IMG/VR virus record: IMGVR_UViG_3300032271_000886
Span: 1-22,386 of that record
Reading direction: 5' to 3' (one strand)
Source of the DNA: a virus
DNA length: 22,386 bases
The position numbers and the translations under genes were made by a program. Under the pieces are notes generated by a model. That model had not been told where the DNA came from and did not search any database. It saw only the letters and a program-made list of their open reading frames with translations. Shown piece after piece: positions 308 to 21,681 of the stretch (positions are counted from its first letter, which is position 1; the number at the start of each line of letters is the position of its first letter).

Positions 308-1108
308 TTAATTGAACAGGCCCTTTGAACCACCTTGAGCCCGAGGACTCAAAAGCTGGGATCGATACTTAGCGTAATCATTCAGCGGCATAGCTGCAAT
401 TTCTTCAGCCGTAAACTGTCTGTTGCCCGTCTCGATGTCCAAAGGTCCAGCATTCGGAGGAGTTGTGACTCTCGTTCCTGCCATATCCCTTCGTGCAGCT
501 TGCGTAGCTTGCTGCACATTATCTAGGATACGGGAAGAACGTTCTTTAAGTCCTGCGATACTCTGTTCAATTTCTTCTGGTGAGTTACCTGTAATAAGGT
601 CTACAAGTTCAGGAATAATGTTTTCCTGCTCTTCTTGTACACGCTGGTTACGGTAGCTCTGCGTCTCCGCAAATGCCTTCTCACGTTCCAACAAAGCAAA
701 GGCACGTTCACGCTCGTTGCGCTCACGCTCCAACTGCTCCTGCCATTCAGATTCTTTAACCTTTAAAAGGTCTCGAACCTCTAGCTCTTCCTCTTGCTTG
801 CGCTTAGCTTCCTCAGCGTACTGAGTTTCAAGGGCCTCTTTTTCAGCAGCTCTAAGAGCTACTTCTTCGTCGCGATCCTTTTTAATAGCATCAAGTTCTT
901 CTTTGAGGCTGCTAATTTGAGGGTAAAGCTTATCCTTCTCCTGAGAGCGAACTCTAGCCAAGTCTTCCTCGGTGTAGAACTTACTCCCATTAAGAGATGG
1001 GGTGATCGAAGTAGTAGTCGGTGCGTCAACGCCCGTCGTTACTACCGCTGGAATAGTTCCTGCTTCCACCGCGAAGGCTTCAGCACTTGCATTTACAGTA
1101 TCAGACAT
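308..1108 (-). CDS. Putative capsid scaffolding protein
   Basis: A 266-residue protein with a low-complexity Ala/Thr/Val leader (about 1-40), a long, very charged Glu/Lys/Arg-rich heptad region (about 45-165) that should form an extended coiled coil, and a more polar C-terminal third ending in Gly-Leu-Phe-Asn. No enzyme motif is visible. Phage scaffolding proteins are typically helical, highly charged, and encoded between portal and major capsid genes, exactly where this gene sits; they guide capsid assembly inside the procapsid and then leave. The ATG at 1108 has AAGGA at a usual distance. A capsid maturation protease domain was looked for and not seen. The call rests on position and composition. 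Confidence 0.72.
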   Translation of the reverse strand: MSDTVNASAEAFAVEAGTIPAVVTTGVDAPTTTSITPSLNGSKFYTEEDLARVRSQEKDKLYPQISSLKEELDAIKKDRDEEVALRAAEKEALETQYAEEAKRKQEEELEVRDLLKVKESEWQEQLERERNERERAFALLEREKAFAETQSYRNQRVQEEQENIIPELVDLITGNSPEEIEQSIAGLKERSSRILDNVQQATQAARRDMAGTRVTTPPNAGPLDIETGNRQFTAEEIAAMPLNDYAKYRSQLLSPRAQGGSKGLFN

Positions 1109-3856: not shown

Positions 3857-5437
3857 CTACCTTGAGTAAAATGGATTACTAGATACCTCGGCTTCAACCA
3901 TGGTCATATCCAATGTAAGTACACAAGCAATAGCTAAAGAGTCGGCGTAGTCGTCATGTGCGTGAGCCTCATCGGGAGCTGCAGCCATGAAATTAGGGCC
4001 TTTAAACTTAGTCTCTAGGTCTGTCATTTGCTGGTAAAAACGCTTCCACGTACGCAGACGACGGGTCTTGGCATGGTTAGGAAACCCAATCATACGGCGG
4101 TCAATAAGAGCCTTAAGGTGCTTCCAGCGTTTTGACTGCTCTGTTGGGCTACTGGTTAGGGAAATAACTTCTGCTCTAGGTAATAGCAGTTTAAGGCGTT
4201 GGGCTACTGCGTCACCGACACCATTAGCGTCAATACCTACCATGAAAACGTTGTAATTGGCTAAGAAGTTAACAATCTGGAAGTACTGGTCTTCCCAGTC
4301 ATCTCCTTGGATCTCCATCCAATTAAGCACACGGTGGTCGTAAAAACCAAATTCATCTGGTCTATCCCAGTCTACCCAGACCACAGTAACAACTGTAGAG
4401 TCCATCTTACGAGCGGGGTCAATCCCTACAACTACAGGGCTACGGTGGTAAGACCTAACAATTTCCATACTGGTATCGCCAAGTTCTTCCATAACTGTAG
4501 ATGTAATGAACATACCCTTTTCAAGCATCCACTTACAGTTGTAAGACATCTGGAACTCGTCGGAATCTTCACCAATACGAAGCTTTTCTTTTTCAATAAA
4601 CTTAGCGTATTTAGAGTTAACTTTAGATACGTCTCTCCAGTCCCACTGGAAATGGTTCTGTCTCTTACCTCGGGATGTCTGGGTACGTTTATTTAATTGA
4701 ATAGACTTGTAGAAGTTATTTTTGGTATTAGACGGGGTACCTGTTTTAACCATAGTTCCCGCGTAGTACGCAAGCATAGGGGAAATTGATTTGTCAACCA
4801 TGTGGTCGTCTGCCCCCTGACACTCGTCAATAACGATAAGGTGGAAGGACTTAGATTCAATTTTAGCGCGAGGGTTCGCGGTCATCATCATCATGGTAGA
4901 GCCCGAATTCTTTAGGCGGATCTGTCTTGTAACACCAGGGACTCTACCCAAAGTATCATCAATCTCTGGATCTCCAAGGATGTCTAAAGCTCTCTCAGAG
5001 CTAAGCCGATCCACCGTTCTACCAAATAGAGTTTCTACCTGACCTTCAACAGGAGCAAACAGTCCAATCCAAATACCGTCTTTAAACTGACCTAGTAGGT
5101 CTGGGTACATCTTTGCAAGTCGTGGTAACAAGACCATTAGGGTTGCCACGGTGTTGGCAATAGTCTCTGATTTTCCAGACTGGCGGGCGGCTAGGGCCGT
5201 TACTTCCGCGCTATCATTGATAATTACAGATTCCATGATACGCCTAGCTAAAGGAACCTGGTATGGGTGAAGCTCATACCCTACAAGCGCATTCATGAAT
5301 TGCATCATCTTATCGATGAGCTTGTTAACGAACTCTTTAGATAGTTCGTCTGCCTCTTCTGTATCAATATCCTCTTGCTCAACGGTTTCGTAAAGACCGT
5401 CTTCTCCAGAGTCTATGTAAAACTGGTGTTCACTCAT
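3857..5437 (-). CDS. terL: Terminase large subunit (ATPase and nuclease)
   Basis: The motor that pumps phage DNA into the procapsid through the portal and cuts it. The 526-residue length is normal for TerL. N-terminal ATPase: Walker A-like ARQSGKSE at about 84-91 and Walker B LIVIDEC at 200-206, whose Asp204-Glu205 pair binds magnesium and activates water; a coupling motif KTGTPS follows at 231-236. C-terminal RNase H-like nuclease: VVGIDPA (Asp340), VGIDANG (Asp403) and a third acidic cluster HDDYADS (about 494-500). All catalytic elements appear present. An acidic stretch precedes the ATPase domain. The gene starts a new transcript after the terminator at 5486-5531; no small-terminase gene was recognised nearby. 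Confidence 0.95.
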   Translation of the reverse strand: MSEHQFYIDSGEDGLYETVEQEDIDTEEADELSKEFVNKLIDKMMQFMNALVGYELHPYQVPLARRIMESVIINDSAEVTALAARQSGKSETIANTVATLMVLLPRLAKMYPDLLGQFKDGIWIGLFAPVEGQVETLFGRTVDRLSSERALDILGDPEIDDTLGRVPGVTRQIRLKNSGSTMMMMTANPRAKIESKSFHLIVIDECQGADDHMVDKSISPMLAYYAGTMVKTGTPSNTKNNFYKSIQLNKRTQTSRGKRQNHFQWDWRDVSKVNSKYAKFIEKEKLRIGEDSDEFQMSYNCKWMLEKGMFITSTVMEELGDTSMEIVRSYHRSPVVVGIDPARKMDSTVVTVVWVDWDRPDEFGFYDHRVLNWMEIQGDDWEDQYFQIVNFLANYNVFMVGIDANGVGDAVAQRLKLLLPRAEVISLTSSPTEQSKRWKHLKALIDRRMIGFPNHAKTRRLRTWKRFYQQMTDLETKFKGPNFMAAAPDEAHAHDDYADSLAIACVLTLDMTMVEAEVSSNPFYSR

Positions 5438-5481
5438 GTGTTGTCCAAACTGGTAAATCGGTTACTTATAGTTTACAGTAA

Positions 5482-5531
5482 TAAAAAAGAGGCCCTAGTG
5501 CGAAAGGAGGGAAATTCACTAGGGCCTCTTT
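5482..5531 (-). terminator. Strong intrinsic terminator upstream of terL
   Basis: A perfect 15-bp inverted repeat (5486-5500 with 5517-5531) encloses a 16-base loop. Read on the minus strand, the stem is followed at once by TTTTTTATT, a classic intrinsic terminator. It ends the message of the five small genes at 7160-5569, and implies that terL is transcribed from a promoter between here and 5438 or by read-through. Confidence 0.85.
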
Positions 5532-5568
5532 GCCACCATAGGAGAGGGAAGAGGTAAGGCACTTACTA

Positions 5569-5817
5569 CTATACCATAAATCTGGCGTGTAATTCCGAAA
5601 CCAAAGCGTTCACGGCTTCTGCTCCGATAAGTGCTTCGTCTAAATGTAACTTATCGCCAGAACTAGCATAACTACTCATACTGCGACTAGTCTCAGATAA
5701 TGCCTGATCGATCCAAGAACTCAGGTCTGGAGTTGCAATCTTTGATACCCTATTAGCCAGCTTTTCAGGAAAAGGTTTTGTTAGAGGGTCTGGCTTACGC
5801 CAAAATGCTAATCCCAT
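5569..5817 (-). CDS. Hypothetical small protein
   Basis: An 82-residue, apparently soluble protein with no domain I recognise. The N-terminus carries a Trp-Arg-Lys-Pro segment, the middle is Ser-rich (about 34-54), and the C-terminal half should be helical. It overlaps the preceding gene by ten bases and is the last gene before the terminator at 5486-5531, so it belongs to the five-gene unit 7160-5569. Function unknown. Confidence 0.65.
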   Translation of the reverse strand: MGLAFWRKPDPLTKPFPEKLANRVSKIATPDLSSWIDQALSETSRSMSSYASSGDKLHLDEALIGAEAVNALVSELHARFMV

Positions 5818-6071
5818 TCCAGCAGTTCCTCTACAGAAACATCCAATTTACGCCCCCAGATTGCAGCGGTTAAAGCGTCGTCTTCATCTTGACTATGCTT
5901 CCACCACCCAATAACAAGAGCTGGTTTGGTAAACGGTAGACGGAATACTAAACAACTGCCATTACGAAATGGCTCTTCAATTTCATTTGTCCAGCCAATT
6001 TCTACAACAGGTAGTGGTTTACGGTGCGGGTATTTTAACCCTGTTACGTATATTGGTCCAATGTTTAGCAT
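5808..6071 (-). CDS. Hypothetical small protein
   Basis: An 87-residue protein with a beta-rich look: alternating hydrophobics in the first 60 residues and several aromatic pairs (VIGWWKHS at about 53-60), then an acidic helix to the end (EELLEWD). It has no cysteines and no membrane segment. The start overlaps the end of the KTSC gene by one base (TAATG) and its end overlaps the next gene, consistent with coupled translation. No family is recognised. Confidence 0.65.
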   Translation of the reverse strand: MLNIGPIYVTGLKYPHRKPLPVVEIGWTNEIEEPFRNGSCLVFRLPFTKPALVIGWWKHSQDEDDALTAAIWGRKLDVSVEELLEWD

Positions 6072-6571
6072 TAAGCAATATCTCCATGGGGTGACGGACT
6101 TCTCGATATAGTAGGTAAGTTTAGCTCATTCAGAGGCACATTTTGGACGCCGCGTGTTTCGCCCTTACGTTGGGTGCCTCTAGTTAGTTGCTGCATACGA
6201 GCAGCATCTCTGGCAACAGTGTTCAAAGTAGCCCTTTGACGAGACGACATTTGACCCATATCCACAGGGCCCATATCGTAAACTCCAGAGTCAAACCCGT
6301 TAGATTTTAAGAATCTACCTTTAGAGAATGCGGACTTAAAGTCTAACCATACATCCTCTGGAACATCGTAGTAGTTCCACCATACGTTCTTAGGGAACAC
6401 CACAGTCATTGTTTTAGTGTTTCTATCGTACCCCGCCGCTACAGTTCTTGGGTTTTGTGGGTTAATAGTAGATGTGCCCTTTAGTTCCAACTTAGCGAAT
6501 TGAGTAGCATCGTGGGTATCAAAATCCCCGTCATCTTCTAGCATAGACAGCTCGTCTGGGTTAACAGCCAC
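6071..6571 (-). CDS. KTSC-domain protein
   Basis: This protein contains a KTSC domain (about residues 40-92 with the start used here): Val-Ala-Ala-Gly-Tyr-Asp, a strand Met-Thr-Val-Val-Phe, Tyr-Tyr-Asp-Val-Pro, then SKGRFL. KTSC modules are short, named for their Lys-Thr-Ser-Cys-like signature, and occur in phage and bacterial proteins, often with nucleic-acid enzymes; their role is not established. The remainder is a polar, Arg/Gln-rich C-terminal tail. An upstream in-frame GTG at 6628 would extend the frame by 19 codons but overlap its neighbour by 58 bases. I prefer the GTG at 6571, which has GGAG five bases before it and overlaps the previous stop as TAGTG, giving 166 residues. Confidence 0.75.
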   Translation of the reverse strand: MAVNPDELSMLEDDGDFDTHDATQFAKLELKGTSTINPQNPRTVAAGYDRNTKTMTVVFPKNVWWNYYDVPEDVWLDFKSAFSKGRFLKSNGFDSGVYDMGPVDMGQMSSRQRATLNTVARDAARMQQLTRGTQRKGETRGVQNVPLNELNLPTISRSPSPHGDIA

Positions 6572-6894
6572 TATTTCTCCATGCTTGATAGTACTTGACG
6601 TTGTTTGTAACCGCCTGTGGAACGCCACATCTTGTGCCAGTTCTTTTTAAACTTAGCAGCGTGTTTTTCTGGTATTGGTTCCCAATTAGTCCAGGCGTCT
6701 GTATTATGTGGAGTTACTAAAGACACGGTTCCAGGCTTTGCTCCGCCTTCTACAGCTCCTTTTGGAGTTACGGCAAATCTAAACGCTTTACCGTAATGAG
6801 TATCCCAGTCAGGAGCATCAGCGCCAGTATCTGCCATTGTTTCAGGAGATGCTGTCATAGATGGATCTAAAGAGAATTGGGGTCCTTTATCCAT
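6571..6894 (-). CDS. Hypothetical small protein upstream of KTSC gene
   Basis: This 107-residue protein is of unknown function. It has a Met/Ser/Asp-rich, probably flexible N-terminus, a middle region with strands (AFRFAVTP, GTVSLVTP) and a basic, Trp/Lys-rich C-terminal helix region (about 80-100). A GTG at 6906 would add four residues; the ATG at 6894 is chosen because it forms a TAATG junction with the preceding gene and has GAGGAG just upstream, although the spacing is short. It ends in TAGTG with the KTSC gene. Confidence 0.68.
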   Translation of the reverse strand: MDKGPQFSLDPSMTASPETMADTGADAPDWDTHYGKAFRFAVTPKGAVEGGAKPGTVSLVTPHNTDAWTNWEPIPEKHAAKFKKNWHKMWRSTGGYKQRQVLSSMEK

Positions 6895-7160
6895 TACTCC
6901 TCGCACTCATGTAGTTCGGTCTCATCCTCGCGGACTCGTGCGTGACAGTCGTAGCAACGAAGCCACATAGGAGGCTCAAAGTTATTTTGGGCAGTAGCAC
7001 CTAACCTAAAATCAGAACCATCTTCAGGCATTGCCTGCTCATATTCATAGTTAACAGGTTCTTGCCTAAACAACTCAGCAGGAAATGGGCCTTGTGGGCG
7101 GGTTACTCTGGAGGGCACAGGATGGCCCTGGAAGGTCTCTACAGTACGTATGACGTGCAT
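6894..7160 (-). CDS. Hypothetical small protein with C-terminal Cys/His cluster
   Basis: An 88-residue protein whose first 60 residues are polar and Pro/Glu-rich. The last 20 carry Cys69-x2-Cys72-His73 and His84-x-Cys86, a pattern able to hold one zinc ion. Similar short C-terminal zinc knuckles occur in many small phage proteins that bind nucleic acid or protein. It is the first gene of the five-gene unit ending at 5569 and starts just downstream of the terminator at 7176-7200. Function unknown. Confidence 0.65.
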   Translation of the reverse strand: MHVIRTVETFQGHPVPSRVTRPQGPFPAELFRQEPVNYEYEQAMPEDGSDFRLGATAQNNFEPPMWLRCYDCHARVREDETELHECEE

Positions 7161-7929: not shown

Positions 7930-8304
7930 ATGATTGAGGCGCCAAGCTTTGACGGAACGCAAGAGTGTATAAACGTCGACCCTGAGATGTTCTTTCCAGA
8001 CATGCCAGAAAAAATTACGTTACCTGAAACTGCTTCTCTTGCGGAGCGTAAAGAGCAGAAAGACAACTATGAGAATGCGATGGAGGACTACCGTGAAAAG
8101 GTAGAACAAGCAAAAGCTATTTGCTCTGAGTGTCCATTTGTAGAACCTTGCTTTGTCTATGCCATGCAAAACGATGTGTATGGTATATGGGGTAACACCA
8201 CAGAAAACGAACGACGTAACTTCCGCCGTCGTAATCGCATACCCGCACCAAAATCTATGATTGCTAATATTGATTTTTGGGTAAAAGAAAAGGGCGCCTT
8301 TTAA
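7930..8304 (+). CDS. WhiB-family iron-sulfur transcriptional regulator
   Basis: WhiB-like (Wbl) proteins hold a [4Fe-4S] cluster on four cysteines and act with the host sigma factor to change transcription. Here the ligands are Cys13, Cys65, Cys68 and Cys74 (the last three as C-x2-C-x5-C), followed by the turn GIWGN (85-89, equivalent to the G-[VI]-W-G-G motif) and a basic Arg-rich tail (93-104) for DNA contact. At 124 residues it is slightly long. The gap between the first and second cysteine is about 51 residues, versus about 27 in WhiB1, because of an inserted charged helix (about 30-58). It is transcribed against its neighbours from its own promoter, so it probably acts at a different time from the late genes. 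Confidence 0.92.
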   Translation: MIEAPSFDGTQECINVDPEMFFPDMPEKITLPETASLAERKEQKDNYENAMEDYREKVEQAKAICSECPFVEPCFVYAMQNDVYGIWGNTTENERRNFRRRNRIPAPKSMIANIDFWVKEKGAF

Positions 8305-8327: not shown

Positions 8328-11084
8328 TTAAAGACCAGTGTTACGAGTTAAAGTAACAAGCTTTGAGTCAGTGCCTTCGGTTAGTACTGTAGCGGCAGAT
8401 GGGTTCTGTACGGTTACTACAGAGTTTAATGGAACTACAACGCCACCTGTAGGGTTAGCTCCTGTTACACCAGCTACGTTAACCGTGATCTTGCTGTTTG
8501 CCGTATCAATTGAAGAAATAGCAACTTGGTTACGGTTGTACTGAGTATTAGGAAGGAAACCAGTGTTTGTATCATCTTTTACGTACAGGATGTTTACGTA
8601 GTCACCCACGGAAAGGCTAGCTACTGAACTTACTGTGTAAGTAACGGTACTTGTGGTAGTTGCAAAAGCACTAATTGTAAGAGTATTTGGAGCAACTCCA
8701 AATGATAGTGCAGTAGCCGAGTTAGTCGAAGTAGCTGAAGTAGATAACGTAATGTGCGTCGAATCAGGAATTGCCGCAACGGTTGTTCCGCTCGCAATAC
8801 CTAGACCAGATACAGGCATACCAATCTTTACGTTAGTCGTAGCACTAACAGTAACTGCTGTTGTAGCTGCCGCAGTTGTTCCTGTGATACCAGTTGGTGT
8901 GGTCTGATTGATCACGGTACCATCCAAGCCAGCAGCCTTTAGAGCCTGAATAGCATTGGTGTAGGTCTTGCCGACAACGTTAGGGACAACGTACTTCGGG
9001 AAGTAATCTGGGTAACCTAGACGTGGAGTCGTTACAATTTCAGCGTTATCTGTTACTGAGTTCAAGGTGATTGAAGGGACGGTGTATGATGAGCCCCATG
9101 AACCGTCTGTTCCACCAACATATGCTGGAGATACAAACGTTCCGCCCTTCTTGACCAAGTAGCCAAACTTGCTTGAATCAGCAGACGTGGTACTAGATGC
9201 AACTGGTAGAGCAAGGGTAGAAACCGTAATAGGAGCCGCTGAAGTAGAGACTGCAGGGGTTCCAGATGCCACAAAGGTTGATGGGTAAGTGATTGTTACG
9301 GCGCTTGGGCTTGCAGTAGCTACAGTACCAGAGGCATCATAGTTAGTTCCAGTACCTGCTACCGTTACAGGCTGACCAACAACAAAGTTGTTTGGAAGTG
9401 TAAGGGTGATTGAGTTCGCGGTAGTGGCAATAGATGAATCAGTTACACCTGAGACTGGAGTTGCAGCTGTAGTTGCAGATACCGTCAAGGTTGCAGAGGC
9501 TACGCTGATGGAAGCAGTTGATACGGCAGTAGGCATAGCCGCAACCAAAGCTCCAGCAGTAGCGCTAACTACAACAAAGTTAGTGTTGAATGCTGCAGTG
9601 TTTGCAACGCCAGACACACCTGCAATGGTAACTAGCTGACCAGCCTTAATTGAGCCAAACGAAGACGCTTTTGTAATGGTTAGCAGGTTGCTAGCAACAG
9701 CTACAGTTGCGCTAGACAGCGCCACCTGTGCTGGGGTGTTAATCGTAATACTGTTTGCAGTTGTAGCAGAAACTGCTACGTCACCACGAGTGTTAAGGTT
9801 AGCACCACCAATAAAGCCGTAAACGCTTACTGAATCGCTTGTTGTAGCGTTGTGTCCTGAAGCTAAAGTAAAGGTTACCGCAGTTCCAGAAACCGTTACA
9901 GGAGTAGTAGACGCTGGGTTTACTGGGAACTTGGCAGCGTTTACACTAGCGATTTTAGTTGATGCTGTAGCAACAACAAGACCAGATACGTTGTACTCAG
10001 CAAGAGAAGCGCCAGTTACAGACACATTCTGACCTGTTGTTAAGCCGTGAGCCTGCTGAGTAGTGTAAGAGTTGCTCTGTACAGATGCCCAACCGCTCTT
10101 TGTAGATGTTCCAGGGTTCGCAGCACTTGTGATCGTAAAGTTTGTATTATCAACTTTTGTGATAGCGCCTGATACGTTAAGCCCTGTTGGAACCATACCC
10201 GAAATTGTTACATACTGACCAGTAATCAAACCGTGGTTTGCACCAGATGTGTAGTAAAGAAGGGTTGAGCTTGAAGTAGCAGATACGTTTGGTACCTGAA
10301 TTGGGCCAACAGCCGAAGTAGCCACTGCCTGAGCAGACCCTCCAGCAGTGTTAATTGCGGCAATTTGACCAAATGAATTAACTGAATCGTAAGTTCCTGT
10401 GGAGGTGCTTAGTACAGTAATTTGGGTTGATGTTACAGAAGCAACCGAAACTTGGTTAAAGTTAAATTGTGAAGGAACAACGCCGTCAATAGTGATTAAC
10501 GATCCAGCGCTGATAAGTGTAGTTGGGTCAGATGCTACTGTGTACACAATAGTTGAGCCGTTTGCAGTAACGCCTGAGATAGATGCTGTAGTTGCGGTTG
10601 TAGCACCAATTGAGTTCGTACGGCCAGTGTTTGGCTGGATTGGTAAAGAGTCGCCCCACTCAAGGCCAACAGCCTGATTAGTAACAGAAGTTGGGGTTAA
10701 CCAAAAATCTCCACCACTAAGAGGTCCTGCCGTAACAAGGGTGTCATTCTGAACATACCCAGCAATAGCTGAAGCAGTTGTAGAAAACGACCCGTTTACG
10801 GTGAAGCCCGTTGAAGAAGTTACAGATGCAACAATAGCAGGTTTACCTGCACCAAGTGCGGTAGATACGTTATTAATTGTTGAGTTTGGAGCGTAGTTTA
10901 GCCATGCACTTGAAAATCCGTATAGGATAACAGGCTGACCAACAACAAGGTTGTGAGCGGTGCTTCCTGTGCTAACACTGATTACAGTGGATGTATTAGT
11001 AGCAGTAGCCGCGAGTTGAAGCGACGGGTTCTGGTACTGAGTTGGAAGGGTACTGGGGGTCCATGTACCTGAGTCTGTTGCCAT
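8328..11084 (-). CDS. Large repetitive virion protein, probably tail fibre or decoration, with a PASTA module
   Basis: This 918-residue protein is made almost entirely of Ser, Thr, Ala, Val and Gly, a composition typical of secreted beta-rich repeat proteins. Diverged repeats appear throughout, with units such as HGLITGQYVTISG (near 283) and HGLTTGQNVSVTG (near 346) followed by strands ending in a Thr-rich turn; they resemble FCCH-type repeats common in phage fibres and minor structural proteins. A PASTA-like segment PNVVGKTY...AIQALKAAGL is at about 697-720; PASTA modules bind peptidoglycan. No cysteine is evident and no signal peptide. Expected role: host-surface or cell-wall contact by the virion. 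It is the last gene before the 8290 terminator. Confidence 0.72.
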   Translation of the reverse strand: MATDSGTWTPSTLPTQYQNPSLQLAATATNTSTVISVSTGSTAHNLVVGQPVILYGFSSAWLNYAPNSTINNVSTALGAGKPAIVASVTSSTGFTVNGSFSTTASAIAGYVQNDTLVTAGPLSGGDFWLTPTSVTNQAVGLEWGDSLPIQPNTGRTNSIGATTATTASISGVTANGSTIVYTVASDPTTLISAGSLITIDGVVPSQFNFNQVSVASVTSTQITVLSTSTGTYDSVNSFGQIAAINTAGGSAQAVATSAVGPIQVPNVSATSSSTLLYYTSGANHGLITGQYVTISGMVPTGLNVSGAITKVDNTNFTITSAANPGTSTKSGWASVQSNSYTTQQAHGLTTGQNVSVTGASLAEYNVSGLVVATASTKIASVNAAKFPVNPASTTPVTVSGTAVTFTLASGHNATTSDSVSVYGFIGGANLNTRGDVAVSATTANSITINTPAQVALSSATVAVASNLLTITKASSFGSIKAGQLVTIAGVSGVANTAAFNTNFVVVSATAGALVAAMPTAVSTASISVASATLTVSATTAATPVSGVTDSSIATTANSITLTLPNNFVVGQPVTVAGTGTNYDASGTVATASPSAVTITYPSTFVASGTPAVSTSAAPITVSTLALPVASSTTSADSSKFGYLVKKGGTFVSPAYVGGTDGSWGSSYTVPSITLNSVTDNAEIVTTPRLGYPDYFPKYVVPNVVGKTYTNAIQALKAAGLDGTVINQTTPTGITGTTAAATTAVTVSATTNVKIGMPVSGLGIASGTTVAAIPDSTHITLSTSATSTNSATALSFGVAPNTLTISAFATTTSTVTYTVSSVASLSVGDYVNILYVKDDTNTGFLPNTQYNRNQVAISSIDTANSKITVNVAGVTGANPTGGVVVPLNSVVTVQNPSAATVLTEGTDSKLVTLTRNTGL

Positions 11085-13588: not shown

Positions 13589-14554
13589 TTAGCTCCCAAC
13601 TGGTTTAACGGTTACGTCTGAGTTTGGCTCATCAATAGACGAGGTAGTGTCTGCGCTACTGCCTGAAGACGTGCTTTCGTTAGTAGCTGACGGAGTAAGG
13701 CCATCAAACTGAGTTGACATTCCTGGGTTCATAGCTGACAAAGCTGAAGAAGCTCCTTGGGCCACTGCCCTATTTGGTTGGCTAACCCCACCAAAAATAG
13801 AGCTAAAAAATGATCCAAAAGGCATGCTACTGCCTGAGCTACTGCTTTGGCTACTGCTCGAAGTATTGGGTTTTGCAGGTTGCTGATCAATTACAGTAGG
13901 AGGTGTAGGAGCAATAGGTTTTTTAGGCTCCGCCGCAGCGCCCCCAGTCCCAGTGTCTGTAGGTTTGTAAGCTTTTCCAATAGTTGAAACATCATATTTA
14001 ATGTACTCAGGGTCCCCTCCTGCTTTACCTTGCACAATGTCTGACCAACCAGCAGGTCCGCCATACAAATCACTGGCTTTTACTTTCGTAATTGGAGCTC
14101 CGTTTTCTCCAGTAGTCCATACATACCCATTACCAGCAGATATGGTTACATGCCTATTTGGGTTTTTTGTATCATAAAACACAGGGACCCCTGCTGGGGC
14201 GTCTCCTGTAAAGAAATGCTTTTGATCTTGGGAGTATTTTTCCCAGTCTATGGCCCCTCCGTAAACCCCTCCATGCCCTAAGACCGAGTACTCGCCGTAT
14301 CTTTGACAGTGACCAGAATAATTTGGCTCCGTGTTGTTGGTGTCGTGTACTTTAAAGTTTTTACCAGTAGGATCAGCATTAGCTACAACCTGTGTCCAAG
14401 GAATACCACCAGGATTGACTATAGTAGTTGGGCCAATAAATCCTGGGTCTCCAGGTTTAACTGTAACTGGGGTCGATGAGTTAGTCGGCGTAGGTGTAGG
14501 GGTAGGTGTAACGGGGTTTAGAGGCTTAAGCCTAGGAGTAGTTTTTATTCCCAT
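13589..14554 (-). CDS. CHAP/NlpC-like cell-wall hydrolase with low-complexity arms
   Basis: A 321-residue protein. After a Thr-Pro repeat leader (about 13-35), a domain at about 45-150 contains Cys83 (GHCQRYGEYS), a following GGAIDWEKY segment (99-107), AGVPVFYD (121-128) and His135 in NRHVTISAGNGYVWTT (133-148). This Cys...(P)AGVPVF...HV(A/T)(I/L)..G.G..(S/T)T pattern is that of CHAP-like amidase/peptidases that cut bacterial cell wall; Cys83 and His135 would be the catalytic pair. The C-terminal half is Ser/Thr/Pro-rich and may be flexible. Position among virion proteins suggests tail-tip hydrolysis at entry, but an endolysin role is possible since no other is seen. Confidence 0.72.
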   Translation of the reverse strand: MGIKTTPRLKPLNPVTPTPTPTPTNSSTPVTVKPGDPGFIGPTTIVNPGGIPWTQVVANADPTGKNFKVHDTNNTEPNYSGHCQRYGEYSVLGHGGVYGGAIDWEKYSQDQKHFFTGDAPAGVPVFYDTKNPNRHVTISAGNGYVWTTGENGAPITKVKASDLYGGPAGWSDIVQGKAGGDPEYIKYDVSTIGKAYKPTDTGTGGAAAEPKKPIAPTPPTVIDQQPAKPNTSSSSQSSSSGSSMPFGSFFSSIFGGVSQPNRAVAQGASSALSAMNPGMSTQFDGLTPSATNESTSSGSSADTTSSIDEPNSDVTVKPVGS

Positions 14555-15613: not shown

Positions 15614-15705
15614 TATGCATCCTCAAGCTCTCTTTGACGCTCTCTACGAGGTCTAGAATGGCGAATCCAAGGACTTTCTTCTTCTTCGTACTCTTCTTCT
15701 TCCAT
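15613..15705 (-). CDS. 30-residue acidic-basic micropeptide
   Basis: A frame coding for MEEEEYEEEESPWIRHSRPR followed by Arg/Glu residues, so an acidic head and a basic tail. Both ends are TAATG junctions, with the 53-residue gene before and the 41-residue gene after. No ribosome site of its own is obvious, so it would depend on coupling. Function unknown. Confidence 0.5.
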   Translation of the reverse strand: MEEEEYEEEESPWIRHSRPRRERQRELEDA

Positions 15706-15866
15706 TAATACTCAATTTTACCCTTCTCGGACACCGATTTATCGCTATCTGTAGTTCCAAGAGCGCGAGCAGCGCGATCATCACTAATAGATGCCTGGGC
15801 ATTAGCTACCCCAAAGGCTCCTACTAACTTATTTAGATGAAGCTGTTGCAACTCATTAACGTTCAT
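15705..15866 (-). CDS. 53-residue hypothetical protein
   Basis: A 53-residue protein beginning MNVNELQQLHLNKLVGAFGV, with a helix in the first half and a Ser/Asp/Lys-rich second half. Start and stop both lie in TAATG junctions. No domain is recognised. It is part of the micro-gene chain 15276-16300 and is likely real because its frame is flanked by exact overlaps on both sides. Confidence 0.65.
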   Translation of the reverse strand: MNVNELQQLHLNKLVGAFGVANAQASISDDRAARALGTTDSDKSVSEKGKIEY

Positions 15867-16300
15867 TAACCGCGCCCTCGGGCTCGCTGCTGCTTTAATT
15901 TACGACGACTCTTAGGTACTGACGGCAAGTTAAGAGCTTCCGCAGCTTTACGTCGTCCAGCTACTGTGTCAACTCTAGTTGCTGCAACTTCACCTAAATT
16001 AGTATCCGAATTTAAACTGCCTGTTAAAGAACCATCGATCACTGTTGGCGGATCCACAACTGCTGGAGGGTTTATAACGGCAGTGCTTTCCCAATTATGG
16101 ATACCTTTTGCGGCAGCTTTAGCAATACCTTTTGCAGCCTCTCTAGCGTCATAAAAAGCCGCTAGCCTACTAATACTTGTAACTTTTGGGTCATATCCTG
16201 AAGTTGATTGGCCTAAACCAATAGTTACTTCATCGTTAGGGTTGATGTCATACCTAACGTCTCTGCGTCGTCTGCTTCTTCTATCTGCGTTAGAGCCCAT
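15866..16300 (-). CDS. Hypothetical protein with basic ends
   Basis: A 144-residue protein. Arg-rich segments at both ends (RRSRRRRDVR near 7-16 and a Lys/Arg/Gln tail in the last 20) flank an Ala/Lys helix (about 54-66) and a Pro/Val/Ile-rich centre. The charge at the ends suggests nucleic-acid contact. Its TAA overlaps the next start (TAATG), and it begins where the ParB-like gene ends. Function unknown. Confidence 0.65.
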   Translation of the reverse strand: MGSNADRRSRRRRDVRYDINPNDEVTIGLGQSTSGYDPKVTSISRLAAFYDAREAAKGIAKAAAKGIHNWESTAVINPPAVVDPPTVIDGSLTGSLNSDTNLGEVAATRVDTVAGRRKAAEALNLPSVPKSRRKLKQQRARGRG

Positions 16301-16761
16301 TATCTACCTTTCATTACAAGATTAGGGTCAGCAACCTTAGGGTACCAACCATGCGCGTTAGGTTGAAGCGAAGGGATTTTACCTACTCGATGCCCACGGC
16401 TACTGCCGTACTCAGTTACTTGGGCTACTGTTGGGAGCAAAATGCCTCCAGCACTTTTTGCAGCTTCTACTCGGTGGTGGCCTTCATCAATATAAGTAGT
16501 TCCAGATCGTAAACTATGTTCTAAAACAATAGGATTACGAAGACCTGAGCCGTTTCGCAGTTGATCGGCAATATCATCAATAGTTGCTCTAGAATCTCCT
16601 CGATCGTCTTGCCCAGGCCTATCTTGAACTCGGTAAGGGTCAAAATCTTGTGCACCGACTAGAGCGACAGGATAAGCACCGCGCCAAAGACCGTTGTCGT
16701 CTACCGACTGAGCAAAGTCAGGATGGAGTCTATGTAACAGTTCTAGTTGCTGCGGGGTCAT
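16300..16761 (-). CDS. ParB/Srx-like domain protein
   Basis: A 153-residue protein with NPIVL (76-80) followed by TTYIDEGHHRVEAAKSAG (88-105) and then LLPTVAQV (108-115). This is the pattern of ParB-like nuclease/sulfiredoxin folds, where a Gly-x-His/Arg-Arg-x-x-Ala-Ala motif binds a nucleotide. Stand-alone ParB-like proteins are common in phages, with roles from DNA processing to regulation, and here no ParA partner or parS-like site is seen. It overlaps the preceding zinc-like gene by four bases. The fold call is good; the activity is not known. Confidence 0.72.
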   Translation of the reverse strand: MTPQQLELLHRLHPDFAQSVDDNGLWRGAYPVALVGAQDFDPYRVQDRPGQDDRGDSRATIDDIADQLRNGSGLRNPIVLEHSLRSGTTYIDEGHHRVEAAKSAGGILLPTVAQVTEYGSSRGHRVGKIPSLQPNAHGWYPKVADPNLVMKGR

Positions 16762-17024
16762 TGTGAGCCGTCCTCAGGAAATAAAGTCTCCGAAAGGCGC
16801 TCGTTATGTTCAATAATGTGTTTAGGAGGTTGAAACCTCTTACAAGAACGGCACGTCATTCGGTGATGTGGTTCTTCAATCATACCAGAATCTTCTAGGG
16901 CGTTTTCATGGTTTACTACGTCAATTGGAAACCTAAAGTGTCTAACTCCATAGGTTAAAGCAGCTTGGGCTACTTCCTTAATATTAGTTCTACTGTTAAA
17001 AAATCTAGTATCTTTTTTAGCCAT
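16758..17024 (-). CDS. Small protein with C2H2-type zinc motif
   Basis: An 88-residue protein. Residues 58-73 carry Cys58-x2-Cys61-x7-His69-x3-His73, a zinc-binding pattern, with His53 and His54 just before. The N-terminal half is basic and should be helical (about 13-30). Such short zinc proteins may bind DNA or stabilise a virion part. It overlaps its downstream neighbour by four bases and starts at the end of the fifth paralog (TAATG). No named family is recognised. Confidence 0.62.
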   Translation of the reverse strand: MAKKDTRFFNSRTNIKEVAQAALTYGVRHFRFPIDVVNHENALEDSGMIEEPHHRMTCRSCKRFQPPKHIIEHNERLSETLFPEDGSQ

Positions 17025-17785
17025 TATCTACCTCTTACGTTTACGGGATCACCAAACAAGTCTAAATCACCAGAAGTTGTTGATTTATGTGCGTCGTACT
17101 CAGCATTAGCTTTTTCTTGAGCTATTGCTAAGTTAGCTTGCGGATCATTTTCTCTACGCTTACTTCTAGCTTCTAAGCCTTCCTTTACGGCTTGAGCCCC
17201 AGCGTCTTCGGGTAGTTTCTTAATATCTACGTATGGGTGCTTCTTCTTGCTATATTTACTAATATCAGCTACTGCATCTTCTACATCTTCTTGAGCATGT
17301 TCTTCGTAGAGATCTTTAGTACGTCTACCAGACACTGGGCCGCTTTGTCCATAGTCTTCAGTGGCATCATCTATAGTAATATCATCTCTAGGAACAATAT
17401 CCCCACGTTCTAAAGCCTTTTTGGCAATTTTACTGCTAGTAGGGTTCATGTTCTCGGAGTATGTTAGCGATCCCCAATGTTTTGCTGCATGCTGACGCGC
17501 TAGCGCCAATACCTCTAAAATACTACTTGGTGAGGCATTATGGCTACTTTGGATGTCCGCTAAAGTCGCTGGGGTATAGTTAAATAGCTTATATTGCCCG
17601 TGCTCATCGGGAGTTTTAGGTAAGTAGTCGTACCTAGGTGGGTACACGATAGCTTTTGCGCCTTCGGTTCTAAACTGCTTTCCAGCATTAGGATTATCAT
17701 GAATGACAAACTGGGCTTCTCCAGCTAAACCACTATCCGTGCCTTTAGCACCGCTGTACTCTGCACTAAAGTAATTTTTAGTCAT
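17024..17785 (-). CDS. Tandem paralog 5 (most diverged, 253 residues)
   Basis: The fifth and shortest of five related genes. The shared core (about 45-132) holds HGQYKLFNYTP, then ASPSSILEVLALARQHAAKH, GSLTYS and SSKIAKKALERGD. The ending LDLFGDP resembles the LFGNP tail of paralog 4. Core helix-strand-helix order, with a small residue and a long amphipathic helix, resembles the second half of GNAT acetyltransferases, but the pyrophosphate-loop motif Q/R-x-x-G-x-G/A is absent, so catalysis is doubtful. Beyond the core it is Lys/Glu/Ala-rich helix. Starts in overlap with paralog 4. Function unknown. Confidence 0.72.
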   Translation of the reverse strand: MTKNYFSAEYSGAKGTDSGLAGEAQFVIHDNPNAGKQFRTEGAKAIVYPPRYDYLPKTPDEHGQYKLFNYTPATLADIQSSHNASPSSILEVLALARQHAAKHWGSLTYSENMNPTSSKIAKKALERGDIVPRDDITIDDATEDYGQSGPVSGRRTKDLYEEHAQEDVEDAVADISKYSKKKHPYVDIKKLPEDAGAQAVKEGLEARSKRRENDPQANLAIAQEKANAEYDAHKSTTSGDLDLFGDPVNVRGR

Positions 17786-18701
17786 CTTGCTTGCCCCACC
17801 TAAACAGCTTTCTAGTTACCGTTGGGTTACCGAACAAGTCGGTATCATGCTTCGCGTCTTCTTGTATTTTAGTATATTCTGATAACGCAGCTTCTTGATC
17901 TGCAGCTAAGGTTTGCTGGCTAGTGTCTGGCTCTCGCATAGAGTGGGCTTCTCTAACTGCTTGTTCAACTTCTCCCCTAGATAACTGGACGCTAGTTACC
18001 GAGCTGTCTGTTATTCGGTTAGGACCTTTCTCCATAAGGCGGGCAGCATTTTTAATTTCAGTTTTAGCTTGGTAATCGCCGCTGTCTTTTAAATAATTAA
18101 TATGCTTATCTAAAGCGTTCTGGTATGCGTCAAAAGAGTCGTACCCTTGGCTTTCTAACTCATCCCGATCGTTGTCTATCTCGTTGTCCGTTTCGATATC
18201 CACTTGTTTTTCGTAGTCTTCAATTGGAGTGCGTTCTCCCGTAAATTGACTGATAGGAGATTTAACATCCCCTCGCTTAACTGCCTGCTTGACAACTTTT
18301 AAACTAAGCGGGTTTAGGGAAATATCATGAACCAGCTCAGGTCCAGCTTGTTGTTTTGCCATAGCTAGTACTTGGGCAATGCTTTTAGGATTAGCGCCCA
18401 TGGTAGAGCCCAATGCAGTCAATTGCGGCGGATAATAGTTAAATAACTTGTATTGCCCATGCTGGTCTGGAGCTGTAGGTAAAAGATGGTAATGTGCGTC
18501 AGTCATGCGGGCCCACGCACCTTGAATTTGACTAAACTGCTTGCTCATGGGTGACCCATTCTCCGAGGCTACAAAACGAGTGGAGTTTCCTGCGTATTCG
18601 CCCTGAGAGCTAGTAGAAGGGTACGTCTGACCAGTATCTTGTCCGTAGTCAACTCGTTGGGTTTCCTGGCGTTGTCTGTAGTAGACGTTCTCGTCACTCA
18701 T
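17778..18701 (-). CDS. Tandem paralog 4 (307 residues)
   Basis: Member four of the array. The core (about 62-150) has HGQYKLFNYYP, NPKSIAQVLAMAKQQAG and LSLKVVKQAVKRGD, closest to paralog 5 by the identical HGQYKLFNY. A polar, Tyr/Gln-rich N-terminus and a long charged helical C-terminal region follow, ending in DLFGNP. It overlaps its neighbours by eight bases on both sides. The absence of cysteines and of membrane segments points to a soluble or virion protein. Function unknown. Confidence 0.72.
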   Translation of the reverse strand: MSDENVYYRQRQETQRVDYGQDTGQTYPSTSSQGEYAGNSTRFVASENGSPMSKQFSQIQGAWARMTDAHYHLLPTAPDQHGQYKLFNYYPPQLTALGSTMGANPKSIAQVLAMAKQQAGPELVHDISLNPLSLKVVKQAVKRGDVKSPISQFTGERTPIEDYEKQVDIETDNEIDNDRDELESQGYDSFDAYQNALDKHINYLKDSGDYQAKTEIKNAARLMEKGPNRITDSSVTSVQLSRGEVEQAVREAHSMREPDTSQQTLAADQEAALSEYTKIQEDAKHDTDLFGNPTVTRKLFRWGKQDD

Positions 18702-19593
18702 TGCCTTCTCCTAAGTATTTGATTAGACCCCCGAAGTCAAGGGGTGTACCCGTTGCAGAATGAGGCACTCTCGAATCGACCGATTTTTGATGGGTATATA
18801 CGTGTCCCTGGCTCATGTAGTCTTTCCAGGCGTTGCTTTCTTTTTCTGGCATGTGGTCAAACAGGGTGCCTTCGTCAGGTAGGGGCGCCATGGCCTCTTC
18901 AGGCTTCTCGGCAGCTATTCGGCGGGCTCGCTGGGATCTAATGTCAGCTACGTGTGCTAGTGCGTCTTCTTGGCTTACTTCGGTGGGCTCGTCACCCCAA
19001 CTCTTGCCTGCGAAAGTAACTGGGTGAAGTTGGTCAGCCAAAGCTCTAGCTTCTTCATCGTAGTCTACTCTTCGTGCATTTAGGTTCCTGCGCTCGCTCT
19101 CTTGAACTTCAGGAGGGGCGCTCTTAAACCATTCCTTGTTCTGTATTCGCTGTTTTGCACGGTTTTCTAGATCTTCAATAGGTAAGTTACGGTTCTCTAC
19201 TAAATAACCTCTTTTTAGAGCGGCTAAAGTTACTCTTGAGCTATCATCAGTCAAAGCCGAAGAATACGTAAGAGTTCCAGGACCATGTTTTGTAGCTTCT
19301 TTATGCATGAGGGCTAGTAACTGTTCAATTCCTCGATCAGTAGTACCTTGTGTGCTATAAAGTTGAGTTAATTTAGACGGAACGCCTTTAAACAATGTAG
19401 GATTGCCAGATTCATCTTTTGGGTAATCTGGCTCAGCTTCAGGATCATCGTATTTAGGATCTGCTGTTTTCCAATATCCAGGGAAAATTGTCGCAGCCGC
19501 AGTTTCTGGCTCTCCGCCTTCATCTGGGTACTCATCTACAGAGGCCATGGGGATGCCGTCTTTTGTTGTTTGGAAGAACTTACGGGTTGGCAT
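18694..19593 (-). CDS. Tandem paralog 3 (299 residues)
   Basis: The middle member. Its core (about 40-140) includes PTLFKGVPSKLTQLYST, TTDRGIEQLLALMHKEATKHG, TLTYSSAL, SSRVTLAALKRGYLVEN. The RGIEQLL segment is the closest in the array to the GNAT loop RGxGxxLL, which suggests that the family descends from an acetyltransferase fold. C-terminally it carries TLFDHMPEKE, related to the NLWDHAGxKD of paralogs 1 and 2. A Glu/Arg-rich helix links the two. It overlaps its neighbours by one to eight bases. Confidence 0.72.
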   Translation of the reverse strand: MPTRKFFQTTKDGIPMASVDEYPDEGGEPETAAATIFPGYWKTADPKYDDPEAEPDYPKDESGNPTLFKGVPSKLTQLYSTQGTTDRGIEQLLALMHKEATKHGPGTLTYSSALTDDSSRVTLAALKRGYLVENRNLPIEDLENRAKQRIQNKEWFKSAPPEVQESERRNLNARRVDYDEEARALADQLHPVTFAGKSWGDEPTEVSQEDALAHVADIRSQRARRIAAEKPEEAMAPLPDEGTLFDHMPEKESNAWKDYMSQGHVYTHQKSVDSRVPHSATGTPLDFGGLIKYLGEGNE

Positions 19594-20528
19594 TATCTAC
19601 CTCTAATTTTAGAAACGGCGTTTACTAAGGAATCTTTAAAAGAACCAACACGACTTGCTGCAGGTACCGAAGATGCGGCAGCATCCCAAGACTTTTTATC
19701 TTTTTTACCTGCGTGATCCCATAAATTACCCTCGTGAGTTACAGGTTCCTGTGCAGGTTCTGGTAGTTCCTGCTGAGCTACTCTTCGAGCTCTTTCTGCT
19801 TTTACAGCATTTACTGCGTCTTGCCCAGCAGTATCGGGCAAATCTTCAGGCTGTTTCCACATAGGCTCGCTGTCGTAGCTGTACTCGTTACCTGCGTCAT
19901 CTTCGTACCAATCAACCGTAACGCCACGATCCTTAAACACGTCATTGTAGTCAGACCTTGCAAGCCTGGACGATCCTAATCTCCGTCGATATTTACGATC
20001 ATCGGCGTCTGCTTTGTTCTCATCATCCGATTCAAGGTATTTAGCTCTAGTTTTGGATCTGAAATCCGCCTCTTTTTGCAAAGCTCCACGTGTATGCGTA
20101 GGGTTCTCTTCCAAATACCCACTATCTAACGCATGGAGAACCATTGGGGAACTATGTTCAGACAAGCTATTTCCGTAAGATACTTTTCCTGAGCCATATT
20201 TTTTAGCATCTTGATGCGCTAAAGCTAGCAAATGCTGAACCGCTTTAGGCGTAAGGTCATCTGTACTGTAAAGATTATTTATGTATGAAGGATAAGCTTC
20301 AAATAGAGCGATGTTACCTTGCTCATCCCTAGGTTGGAGAATATTATCATCAGACCTTGCAGGGTTGTAAGTTTTCCACCCCCCTCTTCTCATACCTAAG
20401 ATTCCTAATTCATCTGGAATATGAGATCGGTCACTAGCGTTTTCTTCAACCCCAAAGTACACGCTCTCGTTCTCATGAAAATTTGCGTGTTCTGGCTCAG
20501 TTCTTTTATAACTACGTGACGGGATCAT
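19593..20528 (-). CDS. Tandem paralog 2 (311 residues)
   Basis: Core at about 50-143: NIALFEAYPSYINNLYSTDD, LTPKAVQHLLALAHQDAKKYGSG, VSYGNSLSEHSSPMVLHALDSGYLEENP in consecutive pieces. It is the nearest relative of paralog 1: both have TPKAVQ, (L/S)HQ(D/E)AKKYGSG, LSE-x-SSP, a C-terminal GNLWDHAGxKD and a final SRV-x-x-FKDSL tail ending in RGR/RGK. The middle third is acidic and Arg/Asp-rich. The one-base junction TAATG with both neighbours indicates co-translation. No function is recognised. Confidence 0.74.
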   Translation of the reverse strand: MIPSRSYKRTEPEHANFHENESVYFGVEENASDRSHIPDELGILGMRRGGWKTYNPARSDDNILQPRDEQGNIALFEAYPSYINNLYSTDDLTPKAVQHLLALAHQDAKKYGSGKVSYGNSLSEHSSPMVLHALDSGYLEENPTHTRGALQKEADFRSKTRAKYLESDDENKADADDRKYRRRLGSSRLARSDYNDVFKDRGVTVDWYEDDAGNEYSYDSEPMWKQPEDLPDTAGQDAVNAVKAERARRVAQQELPEPAQEPVTHEGNLWDHAGKKDKKSWDAAASSVPAASRVGSFKDSLVNAVSKIRGR

Positions 20529-21412
20529 TACTTACCTCTAACTCTGGACACGATACCACTTAACGAGTCTTTAAACGCGTCTACGCGGCTACGGGCAGGA
20601 AGACCCATAGGTTTATTCCACGAGTTTTGATCCTTACGACCAGCATGGTCCCACAGGTTACCTTCATCAGGTAGTGGGGCTTGCTCAGGCTCTGGCAGCT
20701 CTTGTTTAGAAACTCTTCTATTTCTAGCGGCTACAACGTTATTAACAGCTTCTTCTCCAGCGTTCTCTGGAAGATCTGTAACTCTGTTGACTCCCTCTGT
20801 GTAGGCGAGCATTCGACCCATGTTGTCTCTAGTCATTCGACCAAGTGAGCGCCGATGTGCACGGTTACCCTGCGCTTGCGCGTTTTGCCACTCTGCGCTT
20901 GAAGTCAAGTCAAATTCCCTAGAATCAGCCCTATCTTGGGCCTGACCTTCTAAAACTGCCCGTGGAAGCTCTGGATTTTCTGTCACATACCCTTTATCTA
21001 ATGCACGAAGCACTAGTGGCGAGCTAAACTCAGAGAGCTCATCTGCATACGTAAGTTCGCCTGATCCATACTTTTTAGCCTCTTGGTGCGACAAAGCCAA
21101 AACTTGCTGTACTGCCTTAGGAGTAGCCTCTTCAGTACCGTATAAAGTAGATAAAACAGATGGGTTAGCACTAAATAGCTGCCGTTCGCCATCAACTTTT
21201 GGGTAATATCCAGTTTTAGGGTCGGCCACATTCCAGCCGCCTGGCTCTATGTGAGCGTACACACCCTCGTTACGACTTTGAACTCCAATATCTGGACGTG
21301 CATCTGCAAGACCCCTTGGATCGTCACCCTCTTCAACAGAAAGCATTACTTCACTAGGGGTGCCATACATCTCATCTATCGCTCTTCTCTTATAGCGACG
21401 CGTAGGATTCAT
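20528..21412 (-). CDS. Tandem paralog 1 (294 residues)
   Basis: First of the five in transcription order. Core (about 60-150): YYPKVDGERQLFSANPS, VLSTLYGTEEATPKAVQQVL, ALSHQEAKKYGSGELTY, SSPLVLRALDKGYVTENP. The strand-loop-helix-strand-helix order and the LY-x6-TPKAVQ-x-x-L spacing parallel GNAT motif A, without its glycine loop. The end carries GNLWDHAGRKDQNSW and a basic FKDSL helix. The first ten residues are basic (NPTRRYKRR), like those of paralog 2. Fourteen bases separate it from the YozE-like gene. Confidence 0.74.
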   Translation of the reverse strand: MNPTRRYKRRAIDEMYGTPSEVMLSVEEGDDPRGLADARPDIGVQSRNEGVYAHIEPGGWNVADPKTGYYPKVDGERQLFSANPSVLSTLYGTEEATPKAVQQVLALSHQEAKKYGSGELTYADELSEFSSPLVLRALDKGYVTENPELPRAVLEGQAQDRADSREFDLTSSAEWQNAQAQGNRAHRRSLGRMTRDNMGRMLAYTEGVNRVTDLPENAGEEAVNNVVAARNRRVSKQELPEPEQAPLPDEGNLWDHAGRKDQNSWNKPMGLPARSRVDAFKDSLSGIVSRVRGK

Positions 21413-21426
21413 TTACCTATTATGAC

Positions 21427-21681
21427 TTAAAACGGCTCTTTTTGCTCTTTCAACTCTACGCAATACTCTACGTAAGCGTCACTGAGCATCGCTAGCAAGG
21501 CCTCGAACTTGCTCGGGTGTTTCTGCTCAAAGTGCTCTTTCCAGGCCACAGCGGTCCTGTACGGCCCCGCACAGCCCGCGTTGTAGTCTTGCCACATAGT
21601 TCTAGCTAGCAAGCCCACAGAGTCGTCACGGTCCTGCTGTTCAAAAGCCCATAATAAGAACATGAACACATGATACACCAT
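21427..21681 (-). CDS. YozE/SAM-like domain small protein
   Basis: An 84-residue protein whose first half, FMFLLWAFEQQDRDDSVG followed by LLARTMWQD, matches the start of the YozE_SAM-like fold (F-x-x-W-L-x-x-Q-x-x-R-x-D-x-x-G-x-L-A-x-x-x-x-x-D), a five-helix module found in Firmicutes and in many actinobacteriophage small proteins; its role is not established. The C-terminal helix is Glu/Tyr-rich. The ATG at 21681 has no clear Shine-Dalgarno; an alternative ATG lies six codons on. As the first gene of the leftward run, it would sit just after the promoter. Confidence 0.66.
   Translation of the reverse strand: MVYHVFMFLLWAFEQQDRDDSVGLLARTMWQDYNAGCAGPYRTAVAWKEHFEQKHPSKFEALLAMLSDAYVEYCVELKEQKEPF

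Follow-up and report, generated by a model that had tools for sequence, protein, structure and literature searches.

A tandem array of five diverged paralogs with a predicted GNAT-like core in a variable cargo slot of a probable actinobacterial phage

The array and its genomic setting

The window, i.e., the whole stretch of DNA analysed here, is an IMG/VR virus record of 22,386 bp and represents a fragment of an uncultured phage genome. Five intact consecutive ORFs, termed p1 to p5 in the order of transcription, are located on its minus strand at positions 17024-21412 (Table 1). They lie upstream of a lysin-like gene and the genes coding for terminase, portal and scaffold, all of which are encoded on one strand. 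The TerL protein of the window is 51-52% identical to TerL of the Streptomyces phage BRock and its relatives, whose genomes encode a tail sheath, and TerL relatives are present at at least 558 sites, which marks a widespread environmental phage group. A WhiB-type regulator (Pfam, E=4e-14) is encoded at 7930-8304 (+), as one of only a few genes on the plus strand. It indicates an actinobacterial host, and the phage probably infects actinobacteria.

Table 1. Position of the array, its neighbouring genes and the tagged ORFs. Positions refer to the window unless a contig of a related phage is named.
Feature	Position	Strand	Description
p1	20528..21412	(-)	294 aa; predicted GNAT-like core, helical middle, disordered tail with EGNLWDH
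p1/p2 junction	20526..20539	(-)	AGAGGTAAGTAATG; Shine-Dalgarno sequence of p2 within the C-terminal codons of p1; 1-nt stop/start overlap
p2	19593..20528	(-)	311 aa; nearest paralog is p1 (40% over 324 columns)
p3	18694..19593	(-)	299 aa; sole copy with Gly at the motif position (TDRGIE)
p4	17778..18701	(-)	307 aa; sister of p5 (HGQYKLFNY, DLFGNP)
p5	17024..17785	(-)	253 aa; sister of p4; model topology as in p1
Upstream flank gene	21427..21681	(-)	84 aa; kept in relatives; one edge of the slot
Downstream flank gene	16758..17024	(-)	88 aa; C-C-H-H zinc-finger-like; kept in relatives, invariant C-terminal LF; other edge of the slot
ParB-like protein	16300..16761	(-)	phrog_1033, E=1.2e-6; same cassette as the array
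Small conserved ORF	15705..15866	(-)	closes the cassette in relatives
Tagged ORF, window	6571-6894	(-)	
Tagged ORFs, relatives	L104 1263, 1622, 2283; L134 7810, 8154; L009 1185; L095 17539		
Tagged ORFs, L130	325, 780, 1268, 1656, 1943, 4090, 4428, 4882		

The initial annotation had described five tandem, overlapping paralogs, with p1/p2 and p4/p5 as the closest pairs, and this description is borne out; the duplication in place followed by divergence that it suggested is supported. Its coordinates are exact, and all ten pairs are related, with Smith-Waterman scores of 7 to 70 SD over shuffles. BLASTP E-values are lowest for p1-p2 (1e-61), p1-p3 (7e-37), p2-p3 (1e-27) and p4-p5 (1e-24), followed by p1-p5 (2.6e-15), p3-p5 (4e-12) and p3-p4 (6e-8), and the weakest pairs are p2-p5 (1e-7), p1-p4 (7e-7) and p2-p4 (1e-5); as a control, none of the other genes of the window matched p1-p5 below E=0.2. 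The unrooted tree of the five copies groups p1,p2 / p3 / p4,p5 with support values of 91 and 100 and mirrors the gene order, as duplication in place would predict. The core motifs of the annotation are present in the copies, and its TPKAV- or NPKSI-like 'turn' is joined by two further variants, TDRGI in p3 and SPSSI in p5. Codon position 3 is the least conserved one among the copies (0.34-0.39 versus 0.54-0.67 at position 2), a pattern that is also in line with divergence after duplication; since this position diverges fastest, p1-p5 are maintained as proteins by selection.

Adjacent ORFs along p1-p5 overlap by 1, 1, 8 and 8 nt. The junction form AGAGGTARRTAATG occurs at p1/p2 (20528), at p2/p3 (19593) and before the gene ending at 17024, and a near copy is found before the gene starting at 16300. 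In p1, p2 and p5, the codons for the C-terminal RG[KR] are those of the Shine-Dalgarno sequence that serves the following gene, which explains the invariant last Gly of the p alignment; this residue was therefore rejected as a protein motif. The layout of the overlapping stop/start junctions suggests that the translation of p1-p5 is probably coupled, so that the copies would be produced together.

A variable cargo slot between two conserved genes

The array occupies a variable cargo slot, which is bordered by the two flank genes listed in Table 1. In the related genome G007, the slot is empty and the homologues of both flank genes are adjacent (contig L090, 420-758 and 773-1000), whereas the same two flanks enclose a single small ORF in L135 and approximately 3.4 kb of other ORFs in L130. 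In L104, a tandem of three GNAT-like ORFs is found after the upstream flank gene, together with an Arr-like ORF and further ORFs. True GNATs, which match Pfam Acetyltransf_1 or Acetyltransf_7 above cut-off, are encoded in the cassettes of several relatives (L104 1263, L130 3690, L009 1185 and L134 7810). The matches of cassette ORFs to Arr (E=0.004) and ParB_N (E=0.035) are both below the Pfam cut-off, and peptidase-like assignments refer to HExxH-type motifs read by eye.

A probable distant relative of p1-p5 is encoded in L134 (IMGVR_UViG_3300032332_000710), in which a tandem pair of genes (8625-9317 and 9324-9998), coding for proteins of 231 and 225 aa, is located directly upstream of the homologue of the downstream flank gene. 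The cores of this pair and of the p proteins align in register over 71 columns in hhalign with a score of 20.3, compared to 12.5 +/- 2.3 for shuffled profiles, and one of 100 column shuffles reached the L134 score. The pair thus resembles the p array in its slot, its flank gene, its tandem arrangement and the register of the core; however, it comprises two copies instead of five, and the similarity is remote and close to the detection limit. L130 contains another family of three paralogs (M[DE]QGQQF..DFLAQHGFSPEEQ; 1943-2290, 4090-4428 and 4428-4766) in the same cassette region, which shows that small paralog arrays recur at this locus.

Apart from the L134 pair, relatives of the p family were not detected in the libraries and scans covered here, and the family is an orphan within them. 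Comparison of p1-p5 with Pfam, NCBIfam, PADLOC and PDB sequences gave no match of note, and tblastn with all five proteins against 50,697 phage records (INPHARED) gave none. Back-translated pattern scans, which detect close relatives only, revealed no close relatives in IMG/VR (using p1, p3, p1+p2 and p4+p5) or in GTDB contigs (using p1+p2 and p4+p5). The only match in PHROGs was a weak one of p4 to phrog_4181 (E=4e-4), a family without assigned function; it lies in the helical region and was put down to chance or composition. The same applies to Val_tRNA-synt_C on p3, which is below the cut-off (E=0.008), and to PRK09438 (E 0.12).

The initial annotation had also considered an assembly of the five products into a hetero-oligomer in the virion. 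Such a role would be in agreement with the position of the p genes among late genes, their adjacency and their probable co-translation. However, a p profile identified no copy in the stretches of 36 related IMG/VR records, many of which are fragments, or in two Streptomyces phage isolates. The genes for terminase, portal and scaffold are conserved in relatives, and the slot is empty in G007. The absence of the p family from these related records makes a core structural role unlikely, and we consider it very improbable that p1-p5 are subunits of a virion part.

Predicted fold of the p proteins

A likeness of the pattern LYxTxxATPKAVQQVLALxHQ...SS...ALxxGY to the GNAT core had been seen before modelling, and the AlphaFold2 (AF2) models thus tested this idea. 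Models of p1 (pLDDT 66, pTM 0.59) and p5 (pLDDT 65, pTM 0.61) were built on one shared alignment of only five sequences. Both show N-terminal strands, a helix, a short strand and a helix, which are followed by a helical region and a strand-helix unit. According to DSSP, the b4-a3-b5-a4 order of the GNAT fold is present in both models; in the p1 model, b4 spans residues 85-91, a3 98-112, b5 120-122 and a4 130-140. The initial annotation had named unrelated folds of the five products as a refutation of its proposal; the models of the distant copies p1 and p5, although they derive from one five-row alignment, agree in topology and share their structural neighbours, so that the proposal was not refuted by this test of two products.

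The best structural neighbours of p1 in the PDB are AAC(6')-Iy (Z 6.6), HPA2 (6.6) and KAT6A (6.3), and Eco2 and SSAT were also found; those of p5 are AAC(6')-Iy, HPA2 and AAC(2')-Ia (6.8 each), and 123 chains reached Z>=5 with the p5 model. Z values below 8 are in the range of common arrangements and are not decisive by themselves. The reading as a GNAT-like fold is therefore based on the uniformity of the neighbours rather than on the Z values: for p1 and p5 alike, nearly all of the top 50 belong to the GNAT superfamily. A further structural neighbour, ICL2, has a C-terminal domain that we take to be GNAT-like, and a viral GNAT (Yasminevirus) was among the structural matches of p5 (E=0.09).

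It is conceivable that the GNAT-like model is an artefact of the shallow alignment and that the proteins adopt another or a new alpha/beta fold, as the pLDDT of 65-66, the use of five sequences and the Z values below 8 would allow; in addition, a Foldseek search of the PDB with p1 gave nothing under E=0.3. Against this speak the top-50 neighbours, which are not mixed in either model, and the tandem GNATs at neighbouring cassette positions in relatives, and an artefact appears rather unlikely. Proteasome subunits, which appeared in the Foldseek PDB search with E>0.3 and TM values below 0.2, were rejected as relatives of the p proteins. The closest structural matches in BFVD are three uncharacterised proteins of uncultured Caudovirales (A0A6J5QYR8, A0A6J5PTC8 and A0A6J5QTJ8), which have a similar length (223-241 aa), match p1 with Foldseek E-values of 1.6e-5 to 7e-4 (probability 0.99-1.00) and also top the list for p5; however, they are only 16-20% identical to the p proteins and lack an annotation.

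The predicted strand/helix order and the structural neighbours, including AAC(6')-Iy, HPA2, SSAT and KacT/AtaT-type toxins, would relate the p proteins to the GNAT superfamily (PF00583 and relatives), from which they differ by an additional helical region and a disordered tail. Moreover, profile-level sequence similarity to GNATs is absent in Pfam, PDB hmmsearch and hhalign, and in hhalign comparisons with the cassette GNATs of relatives, neither the whole p profile nor its core scored better than shuffles. Where helix 3 begins, real GNATs have the acetyl-CoA loop R/Q-x-x-G-x-G/A; p1 to p5 read TPKAVQ, TPKAVQ, TDRGIE, NPKSIA and SPSSIL at this site, and none of the five copies contains the loop motif. 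Owing to the missing cofactor loop and sequence confirmation, p1-p5 are predicted to be GNAT-like in fold and are not classed as GNAT enzymes. Since the loop is not kept, acetyl transfer was probably lost, and the proteins probably act by binding. Alternatively, p1-p5 could be acyltransferases that are active in spite of an unusual cofactor loop, and each could modify a different host protein. The GNAT-like models, the canonical GNATs in the same cassette of relatives, the Gly retained in p3 and the invariably small residue at the first Gly position of the motif (A, A, G, S, S) would be compatible with this; however, the Arg/Gln position is occupied by T, T, T, N and S and the second Gly/Ala position by Q, Q, E, A and L, so that the pyrophosphate loop is not conserved, Ala being found only in p4 and Gly only in p3. 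Enzymatic activity thus seems quite doubtful.

Possible role and delivery

A family that is locally expanded, orphan, probably non-catalytic and located in a cargo slot is best read as a group of host-directed binding proteins, and p1-p5 are probably accessory proteins that evolve fast and target the host, and not core parts of the phage. The explanation that we prefer, and to which we give an even chance, is that one accessory protein with a predicted GNAT-like core was expanded in tandem in this lineage, probably lost its catalytic function and binds host factors. In each product, the GNAT-like alpha/beta core would precede a helical region and a disordered tail, and the five copies would be made together through probable translational coupling from a cargo site among the late genes. 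They may then bind host factors and thereby neutralise them, either in early infection or in the course of takeover, both the target and the timing being our suggestion, and divergence of the copies would allow several host targets to be covered. A role in host takeover or in an arms race is plausible, and the arms race proposed in the initial annotation fits a variable cargo cassette. If the explanation is correct, the array would be a clear case of an acetyltransferase fold that was reused by a phage as a non-catalytic binder and multiplied in place, which is what the need to track a host factor would lead one to expect. The two conserved marker genes that bracket the cargo locus could then also be used to collect new host-takeover and counter-defence proteins from this phage group.

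Delivery of p1-p5 with the virion is possible. For phage polyvalent proteins (Iyer et al. 2017, PMC5512222), which contain GNAT, ART, ParB and peptidase effectors and adjoin late genes, packaging and injection have been predicted. The cassettes of the relatives, which are located near late genes and encode GNAT, ART-like, ParB-like and zinc-peptidase-like domains, resemble this arrangement and share with it protein-modifying and nuclease-like domains; however, they consist of separate small single-domain ORFs instead of one multidomain polypeptide, and the p proteins are single-core proteins of 253-311 aa.

Many cargo ORFs of the relatives start with the peptide M-[DE]-x-G-x-Q-[FW], which is followed by unrelated domains (GNAT, Arr-like, ParB-like, zinc-finger-like and others; Table 1). 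The core motif of this tag is 27-fold commoner beside start codons than elsewhere, a value that includes homologous and thus not independent copies. The tag codons vary among the tagged ORFs, so selection acts on the peptide, which is possibly a packaging or targeting signal. This side finding may be more important than the p array itself.

It was also considered that p1-p5 are packaged in the head, ejected together with the DNA and targeted by short motifs instead of the folded core, which concerns delivery and is compatible with the preferred explanation. This idea draws on the common N-terminal tag of the relatives' cargo ORFs, on a tag-like peptide inside p5 (AGKQF at 34-38, aligned with MSKQF in p4) and on L-[FW]-[DG] in the tails of all five p proteins, which recalls the near-invariant GLF[GN] at the C-terminus of the scaffold. 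However, a cargo tag at the N-terminus of p1-p5 had to be rejected, as none of the five copies starts with it, and the tail motif is short and weak and may just as well be a motif of the sliding-clamp type or due to chance; ejection by means of such motifs is a tentative idea.

In a broader and speculative version, which we regard as unlikely, the locus is a modular cargo site at which small effectors of unrelated kinds would be exchanged as ORF cassettes, with overlapping junctions of a standard form and with short peptides for targeting. In this lineage, it would hold a five-fold expansion of catalytically dead GNAT-fold binders that, once ejected from the virion, each neutralise another protein of the host or of its defence.

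Further variable positions and terminal motifs

The putative scaffold of the window (308-1108, minus strand) has a C-terminal GLF[GNS], which is near-invariant in 39 distinct homologues reaching as far as Streptomyces phages. Proteins of the downstream flank family (16758-17024) end with L-F. Together with the L-[FW]-[DG] of the p tails, these peptides could be a capsid-binding or clamp-type motif or a coincidence.

The putative lysins differ at the same place in the genomes: the window encodes a CHAP-like protein (13589-14554, minus strand), which has no match in Pfam, and L104 encodes an M23-like peptidase (4925-5740), both assigned by eye. A second variable site is found beside the KTSC gene (window 6071-6906, L009 1185-1535 and L010 5101-6550). 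The tagged GNAT of L009 sits near the position of the tagged window ORF, and TerL of L009 is 100% identical to that of the window; as the cargo differs despite the identical TerL, cargo turnover appears to be quick.
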